From Candidatus Dormiibacterota bacterium (lineage in GTDB: Bacteria; Chloroflexota; Dormibacteria; Aeolococcales; Aeolococcaceae): 64,000 bases of DNA. The stretch spans positions 1 through 64,000 of the forward strand of contig DASXNK010000031.1 of assembly GCA_036495095.1 (NCBI GenBank). Direction: 5' to 3'. Position 1 is the stretch's first letter. Each line of letters opens with the position of its first letter. The position numbers were made by a program, and so were the translations under genes. The notes under the pieces are model-generated. The model was not told the DNA's origin. It did not search any database and was given only the letters and a program-made list of their open reading frames with translations. This document shows, piece after piece, positions 11,728-61,030 of this stretch.

Positions 11728-12189
11728 ATGAACGAGGTGCGCATCGAACGCGTCGGCCCACGTCCGCTCGCGGCGATTCGCGCGACCACCAGCCGCAGGC
11801 GGCTGGGGACGGACATCGTGAGACTTCTGGACATCATCTGGCCCGTCCTCCGCGAGCTCAAGGTCCGCACCGGGCACAACGTCGTCGTGTATCAGGGCAA
11901 CCAGGGCGGCACCCTGCTCGTCGACGTCGGCGTCGAGGCCCTCTCCGAGTTCGCAGCTCGAGGTGAGATCCGGGCGACGTCCACTCCGTCAGGGGAGGTC
12001 GCGACGACGGCGTACCACGGCGAGTACTCGGACCTCGCGCCGGCGTACGCCGCCCTGGAGCGGACCTGCAGGGAGACCGGGCGCCGCCCGGCCGGAGTCA
12101 GCTGGGAGGTCTACGGCGACTGGGACGACGACCCGGCGCGACGCCGAACCGATCTCTTCCTCCTGCTGGAGCCGGAACCGCGGGGCTGA
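11728..12189 (+). CDS. GyrI-like effector-binding domain protein
   Basis: A 153-residue stand-alone small-molecule-binding protein of the GyrI/AraC effector-binding type (SHS2 fold). It shows VRIERVGPRPLAAIRATT at the start, a central GTLLVDVGVE strand, the ATTAYHGEYSDLAPAYAAL motif and a final WEVYGDW and DLFLLLEP, all typical of this domain. The AGGAG box lies seven bases before the ATG. It may sequester toxic hydrophobic cations or drugs; no DNA-binding domain is attached. It follows the MarR gene by 104 bp. Confidence 0.8.
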   Translation: MNEVRIERVGPRPLAAIRATTSRRRLGTDIVRLLDIIWPVLRELKVRTGHNVVVYQGNQGGTLLVDVGVEALSEFAARGEIRATSTPSGEVATTAYHGEYSDLAPAYAALERTCRETGRRPAGVSWEVYGDWDDDPARRRTDLFLLLEPEPRG

Positions 12190-12208
12190 GGAGGGTGGAG
12201 CGGCCGCT

Positions 12209-12238
12209 CGCACACGCCTCGGCGCCGTGGCGTGTGCG
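12209..12238. terminator. Hairpin after the GyrI-like gene
   Basis: A 10-bp perfect stem CGCACACGCC/GGCGTGTGCG with a 10-nt loop, 19 bp after the stop at 12189. There is no T-tract, which is common for high-GC terminators. The rest of 12239-12389 shows no gene. Confidence 0.5.
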
Positions 12239-12389
12239 TACCGCCGGATGGCCGGACGCCGCCGACGTACACCATCCTGTCGAGAAGCCGGCCGCGAGAC
12301 GGACGCAGGTAGGCTAGGTGCCGGCCACCCCGGATTCAGTCGACGCCTGCCGCGGAGCGCTCCGCCCGGCCGGTGACAGGAGGACCACG

Positions 12390-13040
12390 ATGCAGCTAGG
12401 CGACACCGCCCCGGACTTCGAGGCGGACACCACCCAGGGCAGGATCAAGTTCCACGACTGGATCGGCGACTCGTGGGCGGTCCTGTTCTCGCACCCCAAG
12501 GACTTCACCCCGGTCTGCACCACCGAGCTGGGGTACATGGCGAGGATCTCGCCCGAGTTCGAGCGCCGCAACGTCAAGGTCATCGGGCTCTCGGTCGACC
12601 GCATCGACAACCACGAGAGGTGGGCCGACGACATCGAGGAGACCCAGGGCTCCCGGCCCGACTACCCGATCATCGGCGACGCCGACTTCAACGTGTCGAA
12701 GCTCTACGGGATGCTGCCGGCGAGCGTCTCCGGAGACCCGGCGAAGCGCACGCCGGCGGACAACATGACCGTCCGCAACGTCTTCGTGATCGGCCCGGAC
12801 AGGAAGATCAAGCTGATCCTCGTGTACCCGATGACGACCGGCCGGAATTTCGACGAGGTGCTGCGGGTGATCGACTCGCTGCAGCTCACCGCGAAGCACC
12901 GGGTCGCGACGCCGGTCAACTGGAAGCAGGGCGAGGATGTGATCATCGCCGGCTCGGTGTCCGACGACGAGGCGCAGCAGATCTTCCCGGGCTACAGCGC
13001 GCCGAAGCCCTACCTGCGCATCACCCCGCAGCCGCGGTAG
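12390..13040 (+). CDS. 1-Cys peroxiredoxin (Prx6/AhpC-TSA type)
   Basis: A 216-residue peroxidase reducing H2O2 and organic peroxides. The peroxidatic Cys43 is in FTPVCTTE, and the Prx6-class C-terminal domain (VATPVNWKQGEDVII) is present. No other cysteine occurs in the protein, so it is a true 1-Cys enzyme needing an external thiol. The length matches the Prx6 family. ATG at 12390 after a strong ACAGGAGG. It is followed by a long hairpin. Confidence 0.93.
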   Translation: MQLGDTAPDFEADTTQGRIKFHDWIGDSWAVLFSHPKDFTPVCTTELGYMARISPEFERRNVKVIGLSVDRIDNHERWADDIEETQGSRPDYPIIGDADFNVSKLYGMLPASVSGDPAKRTPADNMTVRNVFVIGPDRKIKLILVYPMTTGRNFDEVLRVIDSLQLTAKHRVATPVNWKQGEDVIIAGSVSDDEAQQIFPGYSAPKPYLRITPQPR

Positions 13041-13048
13041 TGGACGCA

Positions 13049-13080
13049 GCAGCTCCTCGCGGCCGGCCGCGAGGAGCTGC
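13049..13080. terminator. Perfect 32-bp palindrome, probable terminator
   Basis: Bases 13049-13080 are an exact 32-bp palindrome (16-bp arms centred on GGCCGGCC), starting 8 bp after the peroxiredoxin stop. In RNA it would form a very stable hairpin; no T-tract follows. As DNA it is also a cruciform or dimer-binding candidate. Confidence 0.6.
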
Positions 13081-13140
13081 CGCGGTCCGCCGGCGTGGGG
13101 CCCTGAGGTGATGCGCCGGACCTCGTGGCATACTGCCGCG

Positions 13141-13740
13141 ATGGCCGGGCACGACCCCAAGGCGGACCTTCTCCGCTCCCTGCAGGCCGCTCGCGAGGCC
13201 CTGCTCTGGAAGCTCGACGGGCTGTCGGAGTACGACGTCCGGCGGCCGATGACCCCGACCGGGACCAACCTGCTCGGGCTCGTCAAGCACGTGGCCAACG
13301 TCGAGTTCGGCTACTTCGGCGAGACCTTCGGCCGGCGCCCTGCGGAGCCGCTCTCCTGGTTCGAGGAGGGCGCCGAGCCCAATGCCGACATGTGGGCGAC
13401 GGCCGCTGAGACGCGGGAGCAGATCGTCGGCCTCTACCACCGGGCATGGGCCCACGCGGATGCGACCATCGAGGCGCTGCCGCTGGACGCCCTCGGGCAC
13501 GTGCCCTGGTTTCCGGAGGACCGGCGGGAGGTGACGCTGCACCGGATCCTGGTGCACGTGATCGCCGAGACCAACCGCCATGCCGGGCACGCCGACATCG
13601 CGCGCGAGCTCATCGACGGTGTGGTGGGGCTCCGCAGGGACAACTCCAACATGGCCCCGGGTGACCCGGACTGGTGGGAGGGCTACCGCGGCCGGCTGGA
13701 GCACGCCGCCCATGAGGCCTCGGCCGGCACGACCAGGTAG
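13141..13740 (+). CDS. DinB-like metal-dependent protein
   Basis: A 199-residue four-helix protein of the DinB/YfiT superfamily. A metal-binding His triad is suggested by LVKHVANVE (about 55) and HVIAETNRHAGHAD (about 145-153), spaced as in this family. Many actinobacterial DinB-like proteins are thiol-dependent (mycothiol or bacillithiol) transferases; the actual reaction is not known here. The ATG at 13141 has no Shine-Dalgarno, so it may be leaderless. It follows the peroxiredoxin but is separated from it by the 32-bp palindrome. Confidence 0.82.
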   Translation: MAGHDPKADLLRSLQAAREALLWKLDGLSEYDVRRPMTPTGTNLLGLVKHVANVEFGYFGETFGRRPAEPLSWFEEGAEPNADMWATAAETREQIVGLYHRAWAHADATIEALPLDALGHVPWFPEDRREVTLHRILVHVIAETNRHAGHADIARELIDGVVGLRRDNSNMAPGDPDWWEGYRGRLEHAAHEASAGTTR

Positions 13741-13810
13741 CCGCCGCACCGCCTCGACGGCCGGGTCCTCGATCGGGGCGCCCGAGACCGCGGGGGCACG
13801 GTCCTGGTGC

Positions 13811-48242: not shown

Positions 48243-48497
48243 ATGGTGAGTGCGGCCATCCCGTCCCGTGGCCGCCCTCCCGCCGCGTGGGACGGTCGAG
48301 GCACCACGGTGACCAGCTGGAACTGTCCCAAATGCGGCCGGTGGCACGACCTCAGGGCGTGCGACGAGGGGGTGGCGCTGGAGCGCTTCGCCCAGCTTCT
48401 CGAGCTTGCGACCGAGACCGACGAGGCCAGCAGGGCCGCCGACGAGGATCTGCGCCGCTACCTCGGACGCACCCGGGGAGAGCGTCCCGCCGCCTGA
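48243..48497 (+). CDS. Small zinc-ribbon/helical protein
   Basis: An 84-residue protein. TSWNCPKCGRWHDLRAC gives a CxxC and a later Cys able to bind zinc; a long charged helix with a final RRYLGRTRGE follows. ATG at 48243 (GGAG eight bases upstream) or GTG at 48309 (GAGG ten bases upstream). It is convergent with the zinc-ribbon membrane gene 16 bp away. Function unknown. Confidence 0.5.
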   Translation: MVSAAIPSRGRPPAAWDGRGTTVTSWNCPKCGRWHDLRACDEGVALERFAQLLELATETDEASRAADEDLRRYLGRTRGERPAA

Positions 48498-48513: not shown

Positions 48514-48759
48514 TCAGGAGCGGAGGTAGGTGAGCACCACCAGGATGCCCATCGCCAGCGAGACCAGGAGCAGCACCACCATGCCCGGCCAGAACAGGTC
48601 GCGGCCGGTGCGGCCCACGTAGCTCTCGCCGCCCGGGGCCTGCCAGTCGCAGAGCGGGCAGCGCCCCTCGGTGTAGCGGGGGGTGAACACCCACTGGTCG
48701 ACCGGGCAGATCGCCTGAGGGTCGCTGTGGCGGCGCAGCCGTGCCATGGCCAAGCTCAT
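48514..48759 (-). CDS. Zinc-ribbon single-pass membrane protein
   Basis: An 81-residue protein. CPVDQWVFTPRYTEGRCPLCDW at about 18-39 is a likely zinc ribbon, and a C-terminal membrane helix (about 58-80) ends in TYLRS. The ATG at 48759 overlaps the upstream stop (ATGA), with GAGG nine bases before it, so it is translated together with the secreted protein and the transporter operon. Function unknown. Confidence 0.65.
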   Translation of the reverse strand: MSLAMARLRRHSDPQAICPVDQWVFTPRYTEGRCPLCDWQAPGGESYVGRTGRDLFWPGMVVLLLVSLAMGILVVLTYLRS

Positions 48760-50234
48760 GCTGCCGTCCTCGCCGCCCGCCACCACCACAGGCTCACCGC
48801 GGCGCCGATCACCAGCGCCTGCCACATGAAGTAGAGCAGCAGCAGCCAGAGCGGCTTCTGCCGGGTCACCCCGGTGGCCACCATGCTCGGGGCCAGGCCG
48901 CTGCGCGCCCCGGTGGCGCCGCGCGGGGTCGAGCCCGAGCTCGAGCCCGAGAGGGACGACGCGCCCCCGCCCGTGCTCCCGCTCAGGCTGCCCGTGCCCG
49001 CTCCGAGGGAGGAGCCCCCGGTGGACGAGCCGGACTGGCCGGTGCTCGCCAGCGCCGTCCCCGTCCCCGGCGACAGCGGCAGCAGCGGCAGCAGCTCGGG
49101 CAGCGGCGCCGCCGGCACCGCGAGCGAGTCGGCGAAGACCTCGCCGACGGTGTGCTCGACGAACTGGGTGGGCACGCCGGGCGCGGTCGCCGGCTGCTGG
49201 ACGTCGACGTGGATGCCGGTGGCGTCCACGGTCACCTGGTTGCCCGAGGAGGTCACCGCCGGAGCCACCGCGCGGAGGGTCAGCCCGCCCTTGGCGAGTG
49301 CGGTGTTGAGCTGCTCGGTCGCCTGCTGGAGCTGGTCGAGGGGCACCACCGCGCCGCCCCCCGGGCTGACCCCGCCCGAGCCCACGCTCACCGGCATGCC
49401 GCCCACGGTCACCTGGCCGAGGTCGACGGTCGAGGTCTGGTGGGGGGTGCCGGCGTTGGTGACCGAGACGCTGACGTGGATGTTGCGGATGAGCACGCTG
49501 CCGCCCCCGAAGGAGGCGCTCCCGACCCGCGCGTCCCCGCTGTCGACGAGGCCGGTGGCCGGGTCGATCACGACCGAGGCGCTGCTGGTGCCGGCGAGGA
49601 CGCCGTCGGGCTCGGCCGCGTCGGGATGGACGGCCGGATACGCCAGCGCCGCCGCCGGGGTGAGGAAGCGCGCCCGCCAGGCCTGCAGGGCGGCGTCGAG
49701 CGCGGCGAGCTGGGCGCCGCGCCCGGCGCTCTGCCCGCCCGGCGCGGGAGGACCTGCGGGGACGCCACCGCCGGCCATCGTCGCGGTGGCCGTCGCGGCC
49801 CCGGGGACGGCGGTGACATGGGCGTATGGACCGCCCGGCGAGCCGAACGTGTCGGCGGTGTTGTCGGCCTTGGGGTAGCGCGCCTCGGCGTACTGCGGCT
49901 GCTGCTTGCTCGCCGTGCCCGCGACGGTCTGCGCCCCCGGCCCGGTGTCGAGCGGGGTCGCGGTGCCCTCGGCGAAGGGGGAGTTGTCGACGTGGGCGTG
50001 GGAGAGCGGCACCCAGCTGTCGATGGCGCCGCTCTTGAAGTTGGGGAAGATGCCGCTGCCGACGGCCACGTGGTCGGCGCCGGCGTTGACGGTGCCGTTG
50101 GCCACGCCGAGGCCGACCGCCGCCCGCACCGGGCTGGCCCCGCTGCCCAGCCCGGCGGCGGCGCCCAGGGCGACGGTGCCGGCCAGCGCCGCGATCACCA
50201 CGCCTCGCATCGTCCTCATCCCCATGGTCCTCAT
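48756..50234 (-). CDS. Secreted/membrane-anchored protein of the leftward ABC operon
   Basis: A 492-residue exported protein. A signal sequence (about 8-38) precedes a Val/Gly/Thr-rich extracellular body with repeated short beta segments (HVAVGSGIFPNF, TVDLGQVTVGGMPVSVGSGG, VTVDATGIHVDVQQPA), then a Ser/Gly-rich linker (about 400-455) and a C-terminal membrane helix (LLLLYFMWQALVIGAA) with a basic end. No known domain recognised. Start ATG at 50234 has GGAGG eight to nine bases upstream and overlaps the LivF stop (ATGA). Position suggests a surface partner of the importer. Confidence 0.72.
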   Translation of the reverse strand: MRTMGMRTMRGVVIAALAGTVALGAAAGLGSGASPVRAAVGLGVANGTVNAGADHVAVGSGIFPNFKSGAIDSWVPLSHAHVDNSPFAEGTATPLDTGPGAQTVAGTASKQQPQYAEARYPKADNTADTFGSPGGPYAHVTAVPGAATATATMAGGGVPAGPPAPGGQSAGRGAQLAALDAALQAWRARFLTPAAALAYPAVHPDAAEPDGVLAGTSSASVVIDPATGLVDSGDARVGSASFGGGSVLIRNIHVSVSVTNAGTPHQTSTVDLGQVTVGGMPVSVGSGGVSPGGGAVVPLDQLQQATEQLNTALAKGGLTLRAVAPAVTSSGNQVTVDATGIHVDVQQPATAPGVPTQFVEHTVGEVFADSLAVPAAPLPELLPLLPLSPGTGTALASTGQSGSSTGGSSLGAGTGSLSGSTGGGASSLSGSSSGSTPRGATGARSGLAPSMVATGVTRQKPLWLLLLYFMWQALVIGAAVSLWWWRAARTAA

Positions 50235-50986
50235 CCCCGAGATCCTCCCACCCCTGCGGGCGCGCCCGCATCACCGAGATAGGAGCCGCGCACGAAGGAC
50301 TCGTCGGCGGCCAGGGCCGCGGCGCTCCCCACGTAGCTGAGCTCGCCCTTCTCGAGCACGTAGGCGCGCGAGGCGAGGGCGAGGGCGCGGCTCACGAACT
50401 GCTCGACCAGGAGCAGCGATGTGCCCCGGGCGGGCAGCGTCGCCACCAGCGCGAAGAGGGCGTCGACCACCGTCGGGGCCAGGCCCTGGGACATCTCGTC
50501 GACCATCAGCAGCCGCGGCCTGTGGATCAGCCCGCGGGCGAGGGCGAGCATCTGCTGCTCGCCGCCGCTGAGGTGCCGGGCCGCCTGGCCGCGCCGTCGG
50601 GCCAGCGAGGGAAAGGTCGTGTACATCTCGTCGAGCGTGCCCGCGACCTCGCGCCGCGGCACCCCGGCCATGCTGGCGGCGAGGCGCAGCGTCTCCTCGA
50701 CCTCGAGGGAGGGGAAGACCCCGCGCCCCTCGGGGATGTGGACGATGCCGAGGCGGGCGAGCCGCTGCGCGGGCAGGCCGCTCACGGTCTCGCCGCCCAG
50801 GCTGACGCTCCCCGCCATCAGCGGGATCATCCCCGAGACTGCGCGCAGGGTGGTGGTCTTGCCCGCCCCGTTGGCGCCGAGCAGGGCGACGATCTCGCCC
50901 TCGCCGACCTCGAGGTCGACCTGGAAGAGCACCGGGATGCCGCCGTACCCGGCGCGCAGGCCGCGGACGCTGAGGAGCGGCGTCAT
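50231..50986 (-). CDS. livF: Branched-chain-type ABC importer ATPase (LivF-like), leftward system
   Basis: A 251-residue ATPase. Walker A GANGAGKTT near 36, signature LSGGEQQM near 138 and Walker B RLLMVDEMSQGL near 158, with the H-loop region (LLLVEQFVSRA) near 190. In family members LivF pairs with LivG to power uptake of branched amino acids, amides, urea or aromatic acids. The ATG at 50986 overlaps the LivG stop (ATGA); its own stop overlaps the start of the secreted-protein gene. Confidence 0.92.
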   Translation of the reverse strand: MTPLLSVRGLRAGYGGIPVLFQVDLEVGEGEIVALLGANGAGKTTTLRAVSGMIPLMAGSVSLGGETVSGLPAQRLARLGIVHIPEGRGVFPSLEVEETLRLAASMAGVPRREVAGTLDEMYTTFPSLARRRGQAARHLSGGEQQMLALARGLIHRPRLLMVDEMSQGLAPTVVDALFALVATLPARGTSLLLVEQFVSRALALASRAYVLEKGELSYVGSAAALAADESFVRGSYLGDAGAPAGVGGSRG

Positions 50987-51753
50987 GCCGCGCTCTCGCC
51001 GAGGTAGGCGCGGACCACGGTGGGGTCCTCGCGGATGCGCTCCGGGGGCCCCTCGGCGATCAGCCGCCCGTAGTCGAGCACGGCGATGTCGTCGCACACG
51101 CGCATCACCAGCGACATGTCGTGGTCGACCAGCAGCATGGTGGTGCCGAAGCGCTCGCGGATGCGGTTCAGCACCCCGGCGAGCTCGGCGGTCTCGCGCG
51201 AGTCGAGGCCGGCGGCGGGCTCGTCGAGGAGCAGCAGGGTGGGGCGCAGCGCCAGGGCACGGCCCAGCTCGACCCGGCGCTGGATGCCGATCGCCAGGTC
51301 GCCCCCGGGGATGCCGGCGACCTCGGCGATCCCGAGGAAGTGGAGCAGGGCGCGGGCGCGCTCGTCGGCGCGGTGCTCCTCGAAGCGCGCCCGGGGCAGG
51401 CGCAGGGCGTCAGCGATCAGGCCCCGCCGGGCGGCGGCGTCGACCGGCACCATCAGGTTCTCCAGCACGGTGAGCTCGCGGAAGAGCTCGAGGGTCTGGA
51501 AGGTGCGGGCGATGCCGAGGCGGGCGCGGCGGTGCGGCGCCAGGCCGTGGAGGTCGCGCCCGGCGTAGCGGATGTGCCCGCCGTCGACCCGGAGCACGCC
51601 GCAGACGCAGTTGAACAGCGAGGTCTTGCCCGCGCCGTTGGGCCCGATCAGCCCCTTGATCTGGCCCCGCTCCACCCGGAAGGAGACGTCGGAGAGGGCC
51701 TGCACGCCGCCGTAGCGCTTGGAGACGCCGTCGATCTGCAGGAGAACGGTCAT
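50983..51753 (-). CDS. livG: ABC importer ATPase (LivG-like), leftward system
   Basis: A 256-residue ATPase. Walker A GPNGAGKTS near 39, a LivG-type YAGRDLHGLAPHRRARLGIARTFQ segment (quoted in part), a degenerate signature LAIGIQRRVEL in place of LSxGQ, and Walker B LLLLDEPAAGLD. The C-terminal LivG tail VVRAYLGE is kept. It partners LivF and the LivH/LivM permeases. Starts at ATG 51753, two bases after the LivM stop. Confidence 0.92.
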   Translation of the reverse strand: MTVLLQIDGVSKRYGGVQALSDVSFRVERGQIKGLIGPNGAGKTSLFNCVCGVLRVDGGHIRYAGRDLHGLAPHRRARLGIARTFQTLELFRELTVLENLMVPVDAAARRGLIADALRLPRARFEEHRADERARALLHFLGIAEVAGIPGGDLAIGIQRRVELGRALALRPTLLLLDEPAAGLDSRETAELAGVLNRIRERFGTTMLLVDHDMSLVMRVCDDIAVLDYGRLIAEGPPERIREDPTVVRAYLGESAA

Positions 51754-51755
51754 TC

Positions 51756-52763
51756 TCAGGCCACCCTGGCGACGGGGTCGCGCCGGCGGCGTCCGGAGAG
51801 CAGCCGGCCGAGCCGCGCGATGTCGTGCCGGGTGCGCACCACCGCCCCCTCGGGCACCAGCACCAGCTGGAGGATGAGGGTGCCGCCGATGAGCAGGGGG
51901 AACCAGGTGGAGGAGACCGAGATGCCGCTCAGCACCTCGGGGCCGAAGACGGTGGCGATGCCGGCGGCGGGGGCCGCGGCGATGGCGCTCACCCCCATCA
52001 CGGTGGCGAGCGCGGTGAGCTGCACGGAGTGGAGGAAGTCGTAGGAGCCGGGGCTCACCGAGCCGATCCGCACCGCGAGCAGGGCGCCGGCGAGCCCGGC
52101 GATCCCCGCGGAGAGCCCGAAGGCGGCGAGCTTCCAGGCGGTGACGTCCAGGCCCACGGTGGCGGCGGCGAGCTCGGAGTCGCGCACCGCGCGCAGCACC
52201 CGGCCCGCCTTCCCGCGGCGGAGGTTCCACACCAGCACCACCGCGACGCAGAGGATGGCCAGGGCGAACAGGTAGTACGCGTACGAGCCGGTGAGGGGGG
52301 CGCCGAGCAGCGACGGCCGGGTGGGGTGCCAGGGGACGGCGCCGCCGCTGAATCCGTCCCAGGTGCCGGTGACCAGCAGGAACCGGTCGGTGAAGAGCGC
52401 CACCGCCACGGTGAGCACCGCGAGCAGCAGGCCCGAGAGGCGCAGCGCGGGGATGCCGACCAGCACCCCGGCGAGCACCGCCACCGCGACCGCGACCGGC
52501 AGCGCCAGCCAGAACGACCAGCCGTGACCGTCCATCAGCGACCCCACCGTGAAGGCGCCCATGGCGGCGAAGGAGTACTGGCAGAAGGAGATCTGCCCGA
52601 CGAAGCCGGTGAGCACCACCACCGAGAGCACCAGGAGGGCGATGATCACGGCGTCGGAGTCGAGCCCGCGCTGGAAGTCGGACTCGAGGGCGGGGAGCAG
52701 CGCCACCGCGGCCACCAGCGCGGCGAGGCCGAGCCGCCGGTTGCGCGACACCGCCCCGGTCAT
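51756..52763 (-). CDS. livM: ABC importer permease (LivM-like), leftward system
   Basis: A 335-residue permease with about nine membrane helices. The Q-I-S-F-C-Q motif (GQISFCQYSFAAMGAF), the LRDSELAAATVGLDV-like coupling helix (VRDSELAAATVGLDVTAWK) and the MGVSAIAAAPAAGIATVFGPEVL end are LivM features. Start ATG at 52763 overlaps the LivH stop (ATGA). Acts with LivH as the membrane channel. Confidence 0.9.
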   Translation of the reverse strand: MTGAVSRNRRLGLAALVAAVALLPALESDFQRGLDSDAVIIALLVLSVVVLTGFVGQISFCQYSFAAMGAFTVGSLMDGHGWSFWLALPVAVAVAVLAGVLVGIPALRLSGLLLAVLTVAVALFTDRFLLVTGTWDGFSGGAVPWHPTRPSLLGAPLTGSYAYYLFALAILCVAVVLVWNLRRGKAGRVLRAVRDSELAAATVGLDVTAWKLAAFGLSAGIAGLAGALLAVRIGSVSPGSYDFLHSVQLTALATVMGVSAIAAAPAAGIATVFGPEVLSGISVSSTWFPLLIGGTLILQLVLVPEGAVVRTRHDIARLGRLLSGRRRRDPVARVA

Positions 52764-53677
52764 CCGCGTCCCCGTGATGCGGCCAGCCCCGGCCGGAACA
52801 CCACCGCGAGGGTGATCAGCGCCAGGACGAAGGTGCTCAGCTCGCTGAGCCCGGCCTGGGTGAAGAAGGCCTTGGGGTAGTACTGCACCAGTCCCAGCAG
52901 GATCGCCCCGACGACGGTGAGGGGGAGGTTGGTGAGGCGCCCGATCAGCGCGGCGGTGAAGGCGTCGATCACCAGCACGGTGAGCGAGTAGGTGTCGAAG
53001 TTGAGCAGCGGGGTGATCAGCACCCCGGCGACCGCGGCCATCGCCGAGCCGATCATCCAGGAGGCCGCCGAGACCCGGTCGACGTCGATGCCCCAGAGCC
53101 GGGCCGCCTGGGGGTCGTCGGCGACGGCGCGCATCTGCGCCCCCAGCGAGGTCCAGCGCAGCAGCGCCGAGGTGCCCAGGGAGAGCCCGATCGCGACCAG
53201 GAAGATGGTGAGCTGGTCGAATCCCACCACCACGTTGGTGAGCGGCACGGTGAACCCGTTGCTGCCCACCAGCTGCACCGGGCGGTGGTAGCCGGTGGAG
53301 CCCCAGATGATGCCCGCCGCGGTCTGCAGCACCAGCAGCCAGGCGATCGTCACCGCCACCTTGGTCAGCGGTGGCCGTCCGGTGAGCGGCCGGATGGTGA
53401 GGAACTCGATGACGAATCCCAGCAGGGCGCCGGTGGCGACGGCCGCGAGCAGGCCGATCAGCGAGGGGATCCCGGCGACCACGGAGACCTGGTAGGCGAC
53501 GAAGGTGGAGAACATCGCCACCGCCCCGTGGGCGAAGTTCAGCACCCCGGAGACCCGGTAGATCAGCACCAGCCCGGTCGCGGCGAGCGCGTAGACGCCG
53601 CCCAGGGTGAGCCCGATGACCGTGTAGCTGGGCAGCAGCGAGAAGCCGGACAACGACGCGATCACAGACGGGGACAC
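52760..53677 (-). CDS. livH: ABC importer permease (LivH-like), leftward system
   Basis: A 305-residue permease with about eight helices: GLTLGGVYALAATGLVLIYR, NFAHGAVAMFSTF and the coupling segment MRAVADDPQAARLWGIDV near 195. GTG at 53677 (or 53665), 4 bp after the binding-protein stop; no clear Shine-Dalgarno, so it probably depends on upstream translation. Confidence 0.9.
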   Translation of the reverse strand: MSPSVIASLSGFSLLPSYTVIGLTLGGVYALAATGLVLIYRVSGVLNFAHGAVAMFSTFVAYQVSVVAGIPSLIGLLAAVATGALLGFVIEFLTIRPLTGRPPLTKVAVTIAWLLVLQTAAGIIWGSTGYHRPVQLVGSNGFTVPLTNVVVGFDQLTIFLVAIGLSLGTSALLRWTSLGAQMRAVADDPQAARLWGIDVDRVSAASWMIGSAMAAVAGVLITPLLNFDTYSLTVLVIDAFTAALIGRLTNLPLTVVGAILLGLVQYYPKAFFTQAGLSELSTFVLALITLAVVFRPGLAASRGRG

Positions 53678-53681
53678 GCGG

Positions 53682-55103
53682 TCAGAAGCAGTTCCAGCCG
53701 GAGTACGTGTGCCACGTGCCCTGCTGGTTGCGGATCCACTGGACGCAGTGGTTCGGATCGTGCGGCCCCGGGGTGAAGGTGAGCGGCACCGTCAGCCCGT
53801 TGTCCCACCTCGTGATGTGGTCGAGCGAGTCGACCAGCGACCGGCTGGTGGGCGGAGTCGTCCCGAGGCGGCGCACCGCCTCGACGAAGAGCTTGGCGGC
53901 CACCCAGGTCCCCTCGGAGAAGACGTCGAGGGCGTCGACCTGGGCGGGGTAGTAGCGCTGCACCGCCCCGTAGTACTCGCTCATCGCCGGCAAACTCATG
54001 TGCTCGTCTGGCTCGATGAACGGGGTCACCGACTCCGCGTTGTACGCCGCGGGTCCGTACTGCTTCTCCGCCGACTTCTTGTCCATGCCGAAGCCGAGGA
54101 AGGTGGGGTGGAAGTTCTGCCGGTCGAGCGCCTGGAAGAAGCGCGCGTACGAGAAGGGGTCGAGGCCGGCGATGATCGAGTCGGCGCCCTCGAGGCGGAT
54201 CTTCACCGCCAGGTCGGTGTAGTCGGGCTTGGTGGCGTCGGCGAGGTCGACGCTCTTCTCGTGGATGCCGTGCCGGTGGAGGCTGTCGGTGATCCGCTGA
54301 GCCACCGGACCGGTGAAGGGGCTGTTGATGACCACCACCGCCGGTGCGTGGATGCCGAGGTCGACGGCGTGCGCGGCCAGCCCCTCGACCGTGGGGCCGA
54401 GCAGGTTGGGGCTGACCGGGAAGGACAGCGGCGACTCGAACTCGGCCGGGACGCCGAGGCCGCCGACCACGGGGACGCCCTGCGATGCGAGGTAGGCGGT
54501 CTCGGCCTGCTCGCTGCTCGCCGACAGCCAGCCGACCATGGCGAGCACCCCGGAGCCGACCAGCCGCTCCGAGCACTGGTGGCCGCGGGTGGGATCGAAG
54601 GCGGAGTCGCAGTCGACGAGCCGGAACCGGTAGCCGTTGACCCCGCCGGTGGCGTTGACCTGGTTGAAGTAGGCGCGCACGGTATCGCGCTGCACGGTGG
54701 CGTCGAGCGGGCCGGTCTCGTCGAAGATGCCGCCCACGGTGATGACCCCGCCGGAGACGCCCGCGGCCGCGCCCGCAGCCGGGACGGGGGTGCCGGGGCG
54801 GGCATGGGTGCCGCCGGTGGCCGCCCCGGTGCCGGTGCCGGGGCCGGCGACCGGCCCCTGCACGCCCGGTGCGGTGGCGCCGGTGGAGCCGGTGGAGCCG
54901 GTGGAGCCGCCGGGCGTGCCCGTCACCGGATCCTGCGGTGCCGCGGTGCCGGAGGTGTCGCCGGTGCCGGGTGGGATCATCCGCAGCGCGGTGCGGTCGT
55001 AGACGGGGTGCGCGAAGCGCCAGGCGACCACGCCGCCGAGGCCGAGGGTGGTGACGATCGCCACCGTCAGGAAGACGACGACGACCCGCTCGCGCAGCTC
55101 CAC
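53682..55103 (-). CDS. Substrate-binding protein, membrane-anchored, leftward system
   Basis: A 473-residue type I periplasmic-binding protein (Peripla_BP_6). An uncleaved-looking N-terminal helix (about 8-28) without a lipobox is followed by a Thr/Gly/Pro-rich linker of about 80 residues (GSTGSTGSTGAT repeat) and then the two-lobed binding domain (VITVGGIFDETGPLDATVQRDTVRAYFNQVN, quoted in part). Ligand unknown. GTG at 55103 after GGAGG five bases upstream. First gene of the leftward operon. Confidence 0.85.
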   Translation of the reverse strand: MELRERVVVVFLTVAIVTTLGLGGVVAWRFAHPVYDRTALRMIPPGTGDTSGTAAPQDPVTGTPGGSTGSTGSTGATAPGVQGPVAGPGTGTGAATGGTHARPGTPVPAAGAAAGVSGGVITVGGIFDETGPLDATVQRDTVRAYFNQVNATGGVNGYRFRLVDCDSAFDPTRGHQCSERLVGSGVLAMVGWLSASSEQAETAYLASQGVPVVGGLGVPAEFESPLSFPVSPNLLGPTVEGLAAHAVDLGIHAPAVVVINSPFTGPVAQRITDSLHRHGIHEKSVDLADATKPDYTDLAVKIRLEGADSIIAGLDPFSYARFFQALDRQNFHPTFLGFGMDKKSAEKQYGPAAYNAESVTPFIEPDEHMSLPAMSEYYGAVQRYYPAQVDALDVFSEGTWVAAKLFVEAVRRLGTTPPTSRSLVDSLDHITRWDNGLTVPLTFTPGPHDPNHCVQWIRNQQGTWHTYSGWNCF

Positions 55104-55857: not shown

Positions 55858-56652
55858 ATGCTGACCGTACGCGAGTTGAGGGTGACCTACGGGGGGGTGG
55901 TGCAGGCCCTCCGTGGCGTTTCTCTGTCGGTCGCCGAGGGCGAGGTGGTCGCGGTGCTCGGCAGCAACGGCGCGGGCAAGTCCACGCTGCTGCGGGCGAT
56001 CTCGTCGACGCTGCGGATGTGCGGCGGGCACATCGCCGAGGGCAGCCTGGAGTTCGAGGGCCGGCGGCTCAACGGGCTGCCCCCGGCCGAGGTGGTCGAC
56101 GGCGGGATCGTCCAGGTGCCCGAGGGCCGGCGGATCTTCACCCGGCTCACCGTCGACGAGAACCTCCGCGCCGGGGGATACAGCGTCCGTGACCGCAAGC
56201 AGCTCGGCAACGCGCGCCGCCGCGTCGTCGAGCTCTTCCCGATCCTCCAGGAGCGCGCCGAGCAGCGCGCCGGGCTGCTCTCCGGAGGCGAGCAGCAGAT
56301 GCTCGCGATCGGCCGAGCGCTGATGTCCTCGCCGCGGCTGCTGCTGCTCGACGAGCCGTCGCTCGGGCTGGCGCCGCTGGTGGTGGGGCGGATCGGCGAG
56401 ATCATCGCCCAGATCAACCGCCAGGGAACCACGGTGCTGCTCGTCGAGCAGAACACGACGATGGCGCTGGAGGTGGCCGCGCGGGCGGTGGTGCTCGACC
56501 TCGGGCAGGTCTCGCTCACCGGCACCGCCGCCGAGCTGTCGGCGAGCACCGAGGTGCGCGACCTGTACCTCGGCCACGGCGGTGAGCGGGCCGTGGCCGA
56601 GGCGGCGTCCGGCACCACCGCGCGTCGCCGGCTGGGGACCTGGGTGCCGTGA
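55858..56652 (+). CDS. livF: ABC importer ATPase (LivF-like), rightward system
   Basis: A 264-residue ATPase: Walker A GSNGAGKST near 37, signature LSGGEQQM near 144, Walker B RLLLLDEPSLGL near 160 and an H-loop LLVEQNTTMAL. A C-terminal 30-residue tail is basic. First gene of this operon, ATG at 55858 with GAGG ten bases upstream; the stop overlaps the LivG GTG (GTGA). Confidence 0.92.
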   Translation: MLTVRELRVTYGGVVQALRGVSLSVAEGEVVAVLGSNGAGKSTLLRAISSTLRMCGGHIAEGSLEFEGRRLNGLPPAEVVDGGIVQVPEGRRIFTRLTVDENLRAGGYSVRDRKQLGNARRRVVELFPILQERAEQRAGLLSGGEQQMLAIGRALMSSPRLLLLDEPSLGLAPLVVGRIGEIIAQINRQGTTVLLVEQNTTMALEVAARAVVLDLGQVSLTGTAAELSASTEVRDLYLGHGGERAVAEAASGTTARRRLGTWVP

Positions 56653-57695
56653 GCAGCCCCGGGTCCGGCTCCACCCTCGCCGTCAGCGGCATCACCGTCC
56701 GCTTCGCCGGTCTGACCGCGCTCGACGACGTCTCGTTCTCGGTCGAGCCGGGCACGGTGCACGCCCTCATCGGGCCCAACGGCGCCGGGAAGTCGACGAT
56801 GTTCAACGTTCTCTCCGGCGTCTACCGGCCCGCGTCGGGATCGGTGAGCTTCGGCGGCGTCGATCTGGTCGGGCTGGCCCCTCACGCCATCGCCGGCCTG
56901 GGGGTGGCGCGCACCTTCCAGAACATCGCCCTCTTCCCCGCCGCAACGGTGGAGGAGAACCTGATGCTGGGCCGCCACCACCTCACCCGCGCCGGCTTCC
57001 TCGGCGCCGGGCTGCGGCTGCCCTTCGCGACCCGCGAGGATCGCCGCCACCGCGCCCGGGTCACCGAGATCGCCGAGTTCCTCGGCATCGGCGGGCTGCT
57101 CCGGCTTCCCGCCGGCGAGCTCTCCTACGGCGACCAGAAGCGGGTGGAGATGGCCCGGGCGCTCTGCGTCGAGCCCGCCATCCTGCTGCTCGACGAGCCG
57201 GTCGCCGGCATGGACGCCGCCGAGACCGCACAGATGGCCACCGCCATCCGCGACATCCGCGAGGGGCTGGGGATCTCCATCCTGCTGGTCGAGCACGACA
57301 TGGGCCTGGTCATGACCATCGCCGACCAGGTGACCGTGCTCGACTTCGGCCGGCGCATCGCCGACGGCCCGCCGGTGCAGGTGCGCTCCGACCCGGAGGT
57401 GATCCGCGCCTACCTCGGCACCGGCCACGACGGCGCCGCCGCGGCCGCCCCGCCCGCGGCGGCCGCCCCCGCACCGCCGCCGGCCGCCCCCGCGCCGCCG
57501 CCGGGGGCCCTCGCGCCGCCGGGCAGGGACGGGCGCCCCGGCTTCAACCCCAACTCCTACCGGGAGCCGTCGCTGCCGGCGTCCCCTCCCGCCGCCGCCC
57601 CACCAGCCGCCAGCCCCCCACCACCCGCGCCGCCGTCACCCCAGGGTGCGCCCCCGGCCTGGGCATGGAACGAGAGCGAGGAGCCGCCGTCGTGA
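56649..57695 (+). CDS. livG: ABC importer ATPase (LivG-like) with long Pro/Ala tail
   Basis: A 348-residue protein. The first 258 residues are a normal LivG ATPase (Walker A GPNGAGKST near 39, LSYGDQKRVEM near 158, Walker B LLLLDEPVAGMD near 178, end VIRAYLGTGHDG). The last 85-90 residues are almost wholly Ala and Pro with few charged residues, absent from normal LivG (about 250 residues). The stop overlaps the LivH GTG (GTGA). The tail may be a disordered linker to a partner or a neutral expansion. Confidence 0.9.
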   Translation: MSSPGSGSTLAVSGITVRFAGLTALDDVSFSVEPGTVHALIGPNGAGKSTMFNVLSGVYRPASGSVSFGGVDLVGLAPHAIAGLGVARTFQNIALFPAATVEENLMLGRHHLTRAGFLGAGLRLPFATREDRRHRARVTEIAEFLGIGGLLRLPAGELSYGDQKRVEMARALCVEPAILLLDEPVAGMDAAETAQMATAIRDIREGLGISILLVEHDMGLVMTIADQVTVLDFGRRIADGPPVQVRSDPEVIRAYLGTGHDGAAAAAPPAAAAPAPPPAAPAPPPGALAPPGRDGRPGFNPNSYREPSLPASPPAAAPPAASPPPPAPPSPQGAPPAWAWNESEEPPS

Positions 57696-58588
57696 AGGAC
57701 TTCGTCCAGTTCGTGTTCAACGGCCTGTCGCTGGGCTCGATCTATGCGCTGCTCGCCCTCGGGTTCGTGATCATCTTCAAGGCCACCGAGGTGGTGAACT
57801 TCGCCCACGGCAGCATCCTCGCCCTGGGCGCGTACTCGATCTCGCGCTTCAGCTACACCAACCACCTCAACTTCTACCTGGCGGTGCTGCTCGGCGTCGC
57901 CATCGCCGGGGTGCTCGCGTTCGTCATCGAGCGCGGCCTGGTGCGCACCATGGCGGGGCGGTCGGTGATCGCGGTGAGCATCATGACCATCGGCGTCGAC
58001 CTGATCGTCCGCACCGAGACCACCCGCCGCATCGGCGTCGACGTGCTGACCCTGGGCGATCCCTGGCGCGACGGCATCGTCCACTTCGCCGGGCTGACCG
58101 TGCCGACGGCGCGGGTCTGGGCGATCGGCACCGCGCTGGTGATCCTCGCCGCCTTCTTCGCCTGGTTCAAGTTCTCCTCGTTCGGGGTCGCCATGCGCGC
58201 CTCCGCCGAGGACCCCGAGACCGCATCGCTGATGGGAATCCGGCTGGGCCGGATCTCGTCGGTGGCCTGGGTTCTCGCCGGCGCCCTCGCCGCGGTCGCG
58301 GGAGTCTTCCTCACCGCCTTCCCCAGCGCCGGGCTGGACGCCAGCACCGGGGACGTGGCGCTGCGCGCCTTCCCCGCCGCGATCCTCGGCGGCCTCGACT
58401 CCACCGGTGGCGCGGTGGTCGGCGGGCTGATGATCGGGGTCGCCGAGGTGCTCACCGCCGGCTACCAGTCGAACCTCACCTTCCTGGGGCGCGGCTTCGA
58501 CCAGGTGATGCCCTACGTCGTGATGGTGGCGGTGCTCCTGGTGCGGCCCACCGGGCTCTTCGGCACTCGGGAGGCCACCCGTGTCTGA
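57692..58588 (+). CDS. livH: ABC importer permease (LivH-like), rightward system
   Basis: A 298-residue permease with the usual GLSLGSIYALLALGFVIIFK start, NFAHGSILALGAY and the coupling segment MRASAEDPETASLMGI near 170. GTG at 57692 overlaps the LivG stop; the gene overlaps LivM by 8 bp. It translocates the substrate with LivM. Confidence 0.92.
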   Translation: MKDFVQFVFNGLSLGSIYALLALGFVIIFKATEVVNFAHGSILALGAYSISRFSYTNHLNFYLAVLLGVAIAGVLAFVIERGLVRTMAGRSVIAVSIMTIGVDLIVRTETTRRIGVDVLTLGDPWRDGIVHFAGLTVPTARVWAIGTALVILAAFFAWFKFSSFGVAMRASAEDPETASLMGIRLGRISSVAWVLAGALAAVAGVFLTAFPSAGLDASTGDVALRAFPAAILGGLDSTGGAVVGGLMIGVAEVLTAGYQSNLTFLGRGFDQVMPYVVMVAVLLVRPTGLFGTREATRV

Positions 58589-59771
58589 GGTCGCCGTCAG
58601 CAGCCTCGAGAGCGCCGCCGACGCCGCCGTCGCCAGGAGCCGCTCCGGCCTGCGGACGGTGGTGGCGCGGATCGTGGTGGTGGCGCTCATCGCCCTCGTT
58701 CCCCTGGTGCTGGGCACGATCGACACCGAGGGCCAGGACTTCTGGCTGCAGTCCGGGGTGTTCGCCTTCGCGGCGATGATCGCGGCGCTCGGGCTCACCC
58801 TGCTGGTGGGCGGCGCCGGGCAGCTGTCGCTGGCGCACTCGTTCTTCGTCGCCGTCGGAGCCTACGCGTACACCTACCTCGCCTCGGCGACCAAGGGCAC
58901 CGGCACCACGATCGCGTCGTCGATCCAGGGCGGCTTCGGGCTGCCCACCCCGATCGCGATGATCGGCGCGGTGCTCATCGCCGGGCTCGCCGGCCTCCTC
59001 TTCAGCCCGATCTCGTCGCGGCTCCGCGGCATCTACCTGGGCGTCGCCTCACTGGGGCTGGTCTTCGTGGGCCTCCACATCGCCTTCAACGCGCAGAAGC
59101 TGAGCGGCGGCTTCAACGGCCGCGACGTGCCCGACTTCAACCTCTTCGGGTTCGCCTTCGACAGCTCGCCGCTGAGCGTCCTCGGGGTGCCCTTCACCCG
59201 CAACAGCAAGCTCTGGTACCTCGGCCTCGCCGGCACGGTGGTCGCCTACGTGTACTTCGTCAACGTGCTCAAGGGGCGGCCGGGACGGGCGCTGCGCTGC
59301 CTGCGCGACAGTGAGGTGGCCGCCTCGGTGCTGGGGGTCAACGTGGTGCGCTACAAGGCGTACGCCTTCACCCTCTCCTCGATGTACGCGGGCCTGGGCG
59401 GCGGCATCCTCGCGCTCGCGTACCACCACGTCGTGCCCGACACCTTCGGGCTGGGGCTGACGGTCTCGTTCCTGGCGATGATCGTCATCGGCGGGCTGGG
59501 GTCTCCGGGGGGCGCTCTGGTCGGCGCGCTGTTCGTCACCGCACTGCCGCTGGTCCTCGCGAAGTACAGTGACTCACTGCCCTTTCTCGCACCCACCGGC
59601 TCCGGCGGCGTGACTGCCGCGGTGGCCGCCCAGTTCGTCTACGGCGCCGCCGTCATCCTGCTGCTGGTGTTCGAGCCCGGCGGTGTGGCGGCACTCGGCC
59701 GGCGTCTGCCACGGCTTGCATCCAGACTTCGGCGATCCCCCCATCCATCCACCCAGAAGGAGGCAGCATGA
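58581..59771 (+). CDS. livM: ABC importer permease (LivM-like), rightward system
   Basis: A 396-residue permease with about ten helices, QLSLAHSFFVAVGAY and the coupling segment LRDSEVAASVLGVNVVRYK near 235, plus GLGSPGGALVGALF near the end. It has extra length at the N-terminus and in the loops compared with LivH. GTG at 58581; stop overlaps the binding-protein ATG (ATGA). Confidence 0.9.
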   Translation: MSEVAVSSLESAADAAVARSRSGLRTVVARIVVVALIALVPLVLGTIDTEGQDFWLQSGVFAFAAMIAALGLTLLVGGAGQLSLAHSFFVAVGAYAYTYLASATKGTGTTIASSIQGGFGLPTPIAMIGAVLIAGLAGLLFSPISSRLRGIYLGVASLGLVFVGLHIAFNAQKLSGGFNGRDVPDFNLFGFAFDSSPLSVLGVPFTRNSKLWYLGLAGTVVAYVYFVNVLKGRPGRALRCLRDSEVAASVLGVNVVRYKAYAFTLSSMYAGLGGGILALAYHHVVPDTFGLGLTVSFLAMIVIGGLGSPGGALVGALFVTALPLVLAKYSDSLPFLAPTGSGGVTAAVAAQFVYGAAVILLLVFEPGGVAALGRRLPRLASRLRRSPHPSTQKEAA

Positions 59772-61030
59772 AGCCACGTGTACGCACCTGGAGATACGTT
59801 GCACTCGCCACCACCGGTGTGCTGGCGATTGCCGCCTGCGGCAGCAGTGGGAGCAGCGGCGGCGGCGCATCCACCCCCGGCATCCCCACCGGACCGGGGG
59901 TGACGTCGAGCAAGATCACCCTCGGCGTGCTGACCGATCTCACCGGCGCGTTCGCCGCACTCGGGAAGTCGGTCACGCAGGGCGCCACCCTCTTCTGGCA
60001 GGACCAGAACAAGAAGGGCGGCGTGTGCGGCCGCACCGTCGAGCTGCTCACCAAGGACCACGGGTACAACGTCCAGAACGCGGTCGCCCTCTACACCTCG
60101 ATGCAGCCCCAGGTGCTGGCGTTCCAGGAGCTGCTGGGCTCGCCGATGACCGCGGCGCTGCTCAACAGCATCGCCAGCGACACCGTCCTCACCCAGCCGG
60201 TGTCGTGGTCGTCGAAGCTGCTCACCAACCCCTACATCGTCCTCAGCGGCGCCAGCTACGACCTCGAGATGATCGACGGCCTCGACTGGCTGATGAAGAA
60301 CAAGGGCCTCAAGGCGGGTGACAAGGTCGGTCACATCTACCTCGAGGGCGAGTACGGCGAGGACGGCCTGCTCGGCACCACCACGTACGCGAAGGCCAAC
60401 AACCTGACCGTCGTCTCCCAGAAGATCCAGCCCACCGACAAGGACATGACCGCCCAGGTCCAGGCGATCAAGGCGGCCGGGGCGAAGTTCATCATGCTGA
60501 CGAGCACCCCGACCCAGGCGGCGTCCGCGGTCTCCATCGCGGAGGCCCAGGGATTCGACGCCACCTTCCTCGGCAACAACCCGACCTTCGTCCCCACCCT
60601 GCTGTCCGGGCCGGCGAAGACCGGGCTGCAGAAGCGCTTCTTCCTGGCGGCCTCGTCCTCGCCGTTCGCCGGCGACGCGCCGGGTGCGAAGACGGTCCGT
60701 GACGAGTACCTCGCCGCCTACCCGCAGGACACCCCCAACGCGGGCGTCGATTTCGGGTACGGGCAGGCCGAGATCATGTATGCGGTCCTCAACGCGGCCT
60801 GCAACGCCGGGTCGCTGGAGCGGTCGGCGCTGCTGAAGGCGTTCCAGAAGCAGAGCAGCATCGACACCCAGGGCCTGATCGCCCCGCTGGACTACTCGAA
60901 GCCCGGTCAGCCGCCGGCCCGCCAGGCCTACGTGCTCCAGCCGGACTCCGCCGCCCAGGGCGGTCTCAAGGTCGTGCAGCCCCTCACCGCCGCTCCGCTG
61001 GCGGAGACCTACAAGTGCCCCTGCCTCTGA
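59768..61030 (+). CDS. Substrate-binding lipoprotein, rightward system
   Basis: A 420-residue type I binding protein with a lipobox IAAC near residue 24, a short Gly/Ser linker and the Peripla_BP_6 domain (ITLGVLTDLTGAFAALGKS, then NKKGGVCGRTVELLTKDHGY). The end (ETYKCPCL) has two extra cysteines. It delivers the ligand to LivHM; ligand not identifiable. ATG at 59768 after AGGAGG. Confidence 0.9.
   Translation: MKPRVRTWRYVALATTGVLAIAACGSSGSSGGGASTPGIPTGPGVTSSKITLGVLTDLTGAFAALGKSVTQGATLFWQDQNKKGGVCGRTVELLTKDHGYNVQNAVALYTSMQPQVLAFQELLGSPMTAALLNSIASDTVLTQPVSWSSKLLTNPYIVLSGASYDLEMIDGLDWLMKNKGLKAGDKVGHIYLEGEYGEDGLLGTTTYAKANNLTVVSQKIQPTDKDMTAQVQAIKAAGAKFIMLTSTPTQAASAVSIAEAQGFDATFLGNNPTFVPTLLSGPAKTGLQKRFFLAASSSPFAGDAPGAKTVRDEYLAAYPQDTPNAGVDFGYGQAEIMYAVLNAACNAGSLERSALLKAFQKQSSIDTQGLIAPLDYSKPGQPPARQAYVLQPDSAAQGGLKVVQPLTAAPLAETYKCPCL

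Follow-up and report, generated by a model that had tools for sequence, protein, structure and literature searches.

Considering that Liv-type importers are usually described as five-part machines, the locus analyzed here, in which two additional genes follow livF without interruption, raises the question of whether the two encoded proteins belong to the importer or merely share its operon. The locus is located on a DNA stretch of 64,000 nucleotides from a Candidatus Dormiibacterota bacterium (contig DASXNK010000031.1; this whole stretch is referred to as the window). All seven leftward open reading frames reported in a preliminary description were retrieved on the minus strand in the order SBP-livH-livM-livG-livF-SEC-ZR (Table 1), and the joints between them correspond to what had been reported, being either ATGA overlaps (livH/livM, livG/livF, livF/SEC and SEC/ZR, four altogether) or gaps of 4 bp (SBP/livH) and 2 bp (livM/livG). 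The SBP gene starts with a GTG codon and is preceded by a GGAGG-like site. A pattern scan for terminator-like sites returned none in the region, a single scan of GC-rich DNA being weak evidence in this respect.

Table 1 The seven genes of the cassette, in leftward order, with window coordinates.
Gene	Product	Coordinates	Strand	Supporting evidence
SBP	substrate-binding protein	53682..55103	-	Peripla_BP_6 PF13458 E=2.9e-46
livH	permease	52760..53677	-	BPD_transp_2 PF02653 E=7.7e-36
livM	permease	51756..52763	-	BPD_transp_2 PF02653 E=8.5e-29
livG	ATPase	50983..51753	-	ABC_tran PF00005 + BCA_ABC_TP_C PF12399
livF	ATPase	50231..50983	-	ABC_tran PF00005 E=3e-24
SEC	secreted anchored protein	48756..50234	-	conserved family; structure model; ATGA overlap with livF
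ZR	zinc-knuckle + TM protein	48514..48759	-	alignment of 18 homologues; structure model

The first five genes encode a complete HAAT (Liv) importer, i.e., a Peripla_BP_6 binding protein, two BPD_transp_2 permeases and two ATPases, of which LivG carries the BCA_ABC_TP_C domain. The cassette thereby shares with LivKHMGF the same five core genes, their order and their Pfam families, but differs from it by the addition of two membrane proteins, by a TM-anchored binding protein with a long linker, and by livG-livF or livH-livM fusions among its relatives: livG-livF is a single fused frame in family f4 (L055-L068), and livH-livM is fused in the Actinomycetota copies L052 and L053. SBP consists of an N-terminal membrane anchor, a Gly/Ser/Thr/Pro-rich linker and then the Peripla_BP_6 domain; the anchor contains no lipobox, as was the case for 12 of the 13 readable N-termini, and sequence and structure model suggest a binding protein tethered by its N-terminal helix. 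The window contains another complete liv operon, with the gene order livF-livG-livH-livM-binding protein (55858-61030, plus strand), which points away from the cassette with a MaoC-like gene between the two; a motif scan detected neither SEC nor ZR in it.

The preliminary description had noted that the two downstream genes lack a transport domain, in agreement with the finding that neither SEC nor ZR is matched by any Pfam or NCBIfam family; searches against PDB sequences retrieved nothing usable for either of them. SEC is predicted to comprise a signal peptide, a beta-rich ectodomain (residues ~40-375), a disordered Ser/Gly linker (~380-461) and a C-terminal TM helix (462-491), features which, together with a position after livF, define the SEC family and are all displayed by the window copy. 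Such a protein would be anchored in the membrane by its C-terminal helix and exposed on the outer face by means of the linker, which would be flexible. The structure model attains a pLDDT of ~80-90 across much of residues 40-375; the overall pLDDT being 69, details of the model are unreliable. Foldseek analysis of this model returned only a beta-barrel-like background with TM scores below 0.3, and since no solved fold matches convincingly, the role ascribed to SEC is drawn from its architecture only. It had been proposed that the surface protein may capture or process the ligand. The first of these possibilities fits an outward, tethered, beta-rich domain suited to capture or docking. The second, in which SEC would be an enzyme acting outside the cell to release or process the substrate, agrees with a secreted and anchored protein that is produced together with the importer, but appears very improbable given that no catalytic family was recognized in Pfam, NCBIfam or PDB sequences, that no fold match to an enzyme was obtained, and that the residues invariant in 18 SEC homologues are mostly Gly, Pro, aromatic or structural.

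ZR is composed of an N-terminal zinc-knuckle of the form CxxD-x(12)-CPxC followed by one TM helix (residues ~48-80), as deduced from both sequence and structure model. The original designation of “zinc-ribbon” is thus appropriate with regard to the zinc-type motif and the TM helix, but not with regard to the ligands: the window motif CPVD...CPLC provides three Cys and an invariant Asp, and not the two CxxC knuckles of a standard Cys4 zinc ribbon. Residues C18, D21, F25, Y29, G32, C34, P35 and C37 are invariant in 18 homologues, and the conservation of the three Cys and one Asp makes zinc binding plausible. A net positive charge precedes the TM helix in 17 of these 18 homologues, and the head is therefore most likely cytosolic, so that ZR would present a putative zinc-binding head on the cytosolic face of the membrane. 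Cys4 heads do occur in the copies of G275 (the canonical CPVC...CPVC) and of two other clusters of the source genome (C23 and C85, see below), and these three produce sub-threshold matches to zinc-ribbon families. A small N-terminal zinc head and one TM helix are shared with membrane-anchored zinc-ribbon proteins (Zn_ribbon_3, DZR), from which the window ZR differs by its Cys3-Asp motif, by its lack of a family match and by its genetic association with a liv importer. Foldseek matches of the ZR model were set aside, as they did not go beyond short fragments of zinc fingers and had E near 1. In genome G002, the ZR frame (L014:7950-8140) is broken by a deletion and the first half of the zinc motif is gone in that assembly, reflecting either a real loss, with ZR being dispensable there, or an assembly error. 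A second zinc-motif miniprotein is encoded beside the cassette by a gene of ~62 aa (window 48309-48497, plus strand; CPKCGRWH...C), convergent to ZR and also kept in G002 (L014:7737-7934).

The distribution of the two genes bears most directly on their connection to the importer. Homologues of SEC and ZR were found in 24 genomes (all of them MAGs), namely 20 of the same class in two families, three labelled Actinomycetota and one from another Chloroflexota class, and at every locus whose contig permits checking they are located behind livF. No other location was found, although homologues residing mostly away from liv operons, which would have argued against a common system, were searched for. 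Within the order (50 genomes), SEC is confined to the source genome, two of its congeners and a single further genus, always directly after livF. ZR accompanies it in all of these but G001, where the contig stops inside SEC. A profile search of the 110 genomes of the class added 16 SEC genomes, all from family f4; the first 14 of these loci (L055-L068) all carry SEC and ZR, with the upstream liv genes on the same contig barring contig breaks such as that of L060, where the liv half terminates at the edge of another contig. The order SBP-livH-livM-livG-livF-SEC-ZR is common to the window, G002, G010, the f4 loci and, up to its contig end, G001. A scan of GTDB contigs recovered three loci in Actinomycetota MAGs, of which L052 and L053 keep the whole cassette order and L054 does so as far as its contig reaches; these are the only SEC loci of that Actinomycetota order (3 of 129 genomes). 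In a phylum-wide search of 301 genomes, the order livM-livG-livF-SEC-ZR-SBP was encountered in G275, the only SEC-bearing genome of the 47 of its class. SEC profile matches in G037 and G048 were rejected, as they lack cassette or ZR context and contain internal stop codons. No SEC match was found in a plasmid collection, and a motif scan detected no downstream ZR extension at binding-protein relatives of families f19, f69 and f32.

The overlaps recur as well. For livF and SEC, 17 of the 18 loci scored share an overlap of exactly 4 bp; L051 is the exception with 11 bp, and L055 did not enter the count, its SEC being frameshifted. SEC and ZR overlap by 4 bp in all 18. Judged from the sequences, the recurrence of order and 4-bp overlaps in independent genomes of two phyla is not due to chance. 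The expectation of an accessory surface protein and a membrane zinc protein made with the importer, with synteny conserved in distant species, is thereby borne out.

Such constancy does not by itself distinguish subunits of an importer from ordinary cell-surface genes that are simply co-expressed in its operon. The latter explanation draws on the fact that no domain match links SEC or ZR to transport, and on the much faster divergence of SEC (~29% identity between f1, the window's family, and f4) compared to the liv proteins (40-60%). It is nonetheless rather unlikely, since order and overlaps are held across two phyla while the genes flanking the cassette differ between the genera examined, and since SEC is present or absent in concordance with the binding protein. 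The cassette binding protein occurs in 19 and SEC in 20 of the 110 class genomes (two spurious hits removed), and both sets contain the same genomes apart from contig breaks: the contigs of the SEC-only genomes (G071, G087 and G103) begin inside liv genes, and those of the binding-protein-only genomes (G080 and G089) stop either in livG or within the binding-protein gene.

Congruence of the liv and SEC trees is a further argument against mere co-expression. In a livM+livG+livF tree, obtained by a quick method and with long branches flagged, the window's family joins the Actinomycetota copies (SH-aLRT 100), f4 being their next neighbour, and the larger clade (96) that unites them also takes in G275 and the C23 operon; most liv operons without the extension fall outside it. 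The SEC tree contains the same f1+Actinomycetota clade (99/99). Considering that f1 and f4 belong to one class and that Actinomycetota represents another phylum, yet f1 groups with the latter, transfer of the entire cassette would be the simplest reading of both trees, the Actinomycetota origin being as given by the MAG labels. Such a transfer is what a functional unit would be expected to show.

The source genome (G000), in which Liv-type importers are heavily duplicated (32 permease-domain hits), provides another comparison. A small gene with a zinc motif and a TM helix was found in three of the ~14 liv clusters scanned (the window, C23 and C85) and in none of the remainder, in each case 1.5-2.0 kb downstream of livF and on the same strand. 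In C23 (L118), an SEC-like gene (7371-5800) is followed by CHDC...CPIC + TM, and in C85 (L119) an SEC-like gene (~12023-13759) is followed by CPRC...CPLC + TM. The C23 protein aligns with the SEC family profile (hhalign 96%, E 1.4e-9), while that of C85 falls below significance, its N-terminal region being alike by eye; in the rest of the order, no orthologues of the C23-type SEC were recovered. The statement that liv operons normally end at livF is therefore correct for most clusters of this genome, but two others besides the window carry the same type of extension, and divergent versions at the same place speak against co-expression only. In G010, a liv operon on C1 (livHMGF-SEC-like-SBP) bears an SEC-like gene (L137:4678-6333) between livF and the binding protein, again below significance against the SEC profile. 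As no recognizable ZR was found in this operon, the SEC+ZR pair is not obligatory.

LivF of most other cassettes (those of G010, f4, the Actinomycetota and G275) ends in a ribbon-helix-helix-like C-terminal tail, unlike that of the window's genus, whose short tail lacks this part. The loci with the tail are L051, L052, L053, L055-L068, L084, L119 and L136, the last being a liv operon without SEC. The coexistence in most cassettes of an outside domain, membrane helices, a cytosolic zinc head and this tail would be compatible with a transceptor, in which SEC senses the ligand or the loaded binding protein outside, ZR relays the signal inside, and the LivF tail passes it to DNA or protein, thus coupling uptake to gene control. 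We regard this as unlikely, if less so than co-expression alone: the window's genus has no such tail, just one of the LivF proteins tested (the G010 orthologue, L051) exceeded the Pfam cut-off for RHH_1, and the ZR heads may merely hold the protein together.

The two extra membrane proteins are thus probably working parts of the importer and not chance neighbours. There is strong reason to view the seven genes as a single functional unit that encodes an ABC importer of the liv type (HAAT family), in which translational coupling would make the seven proteins in register. As for the individual roles, the most likely reading, advanced tentatively, is that of a platform for SEC and an adaptor for ZR: the SEC ectodomain would provide a platform for docking or capture, keeping the tethered binding protein with its ligand close to LivHM, and ZR, anchored in the membrane, would serve on the cytosolic side as an adaptor that touches the ATPases and has a part in assembling or regulating the complex. 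In most relatives ZR might also contact the ribbon-helix-helix-like LivF tail, which cannot be its partner in the window as this genus has lost the tail. Taken as a whole, the best explanation, in which we have moderate confidence, is a liv-type importer equipped with two accessory subunits of its own, platform and adaptor.

The closest binding proteins of solved structure are only distant relatives of SBP (best profile E 2e-12), and the substrate is therefore not necessarily a branched-chain amino acid. The source genome also encodes an orphan SBP paralogue (G000:C113:24276-25697; L114:7280-8701) which is 57% identical, has no liv permease nearby and adjoins pyrK-pyrD-like genes; more orphan paralogues are present in G002 (L115, L116) and G010 (L117). 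Several binding proteins may feed one importer. Deduction of the substrate from gene neighbourhood was abandoned, as flanks differ between loci and the pyrK-pyrD context is absent in L115 and L117.

AcrZ and KdpF are small single-TM regulatory subunits working with larger bacterial transport complexes. By description, ZR resembles them as a small single-TM protein encoded with a transporter, and differs from them by its putative cytosolic zinc head and by a partner gene encoding a large ectodomain. Open-access literature searches returned no description of such a seven-gene operon, which may nevertheless exist elsewhere; the biology is new in detail and of a known kind, that of a liv-type importer. 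There is a small possibility that SEC, ZR and the LivF tail form a regulatory module in a widespread, undescribed class of liv importers of soil Chloroflexota and Actinomycetota, in which case the importer would be a sensor as well as a transporter, with SEC as its fast-evolving outside receptor. A seven-part importer would offer a lead to the function of two protein families that are without annotation, and SEC+ZR may serve as a genomic marker for one transporter subtype, raising the question of whether such importers depend on a platform at the surface and on a cytosolic partner that requires zinc.
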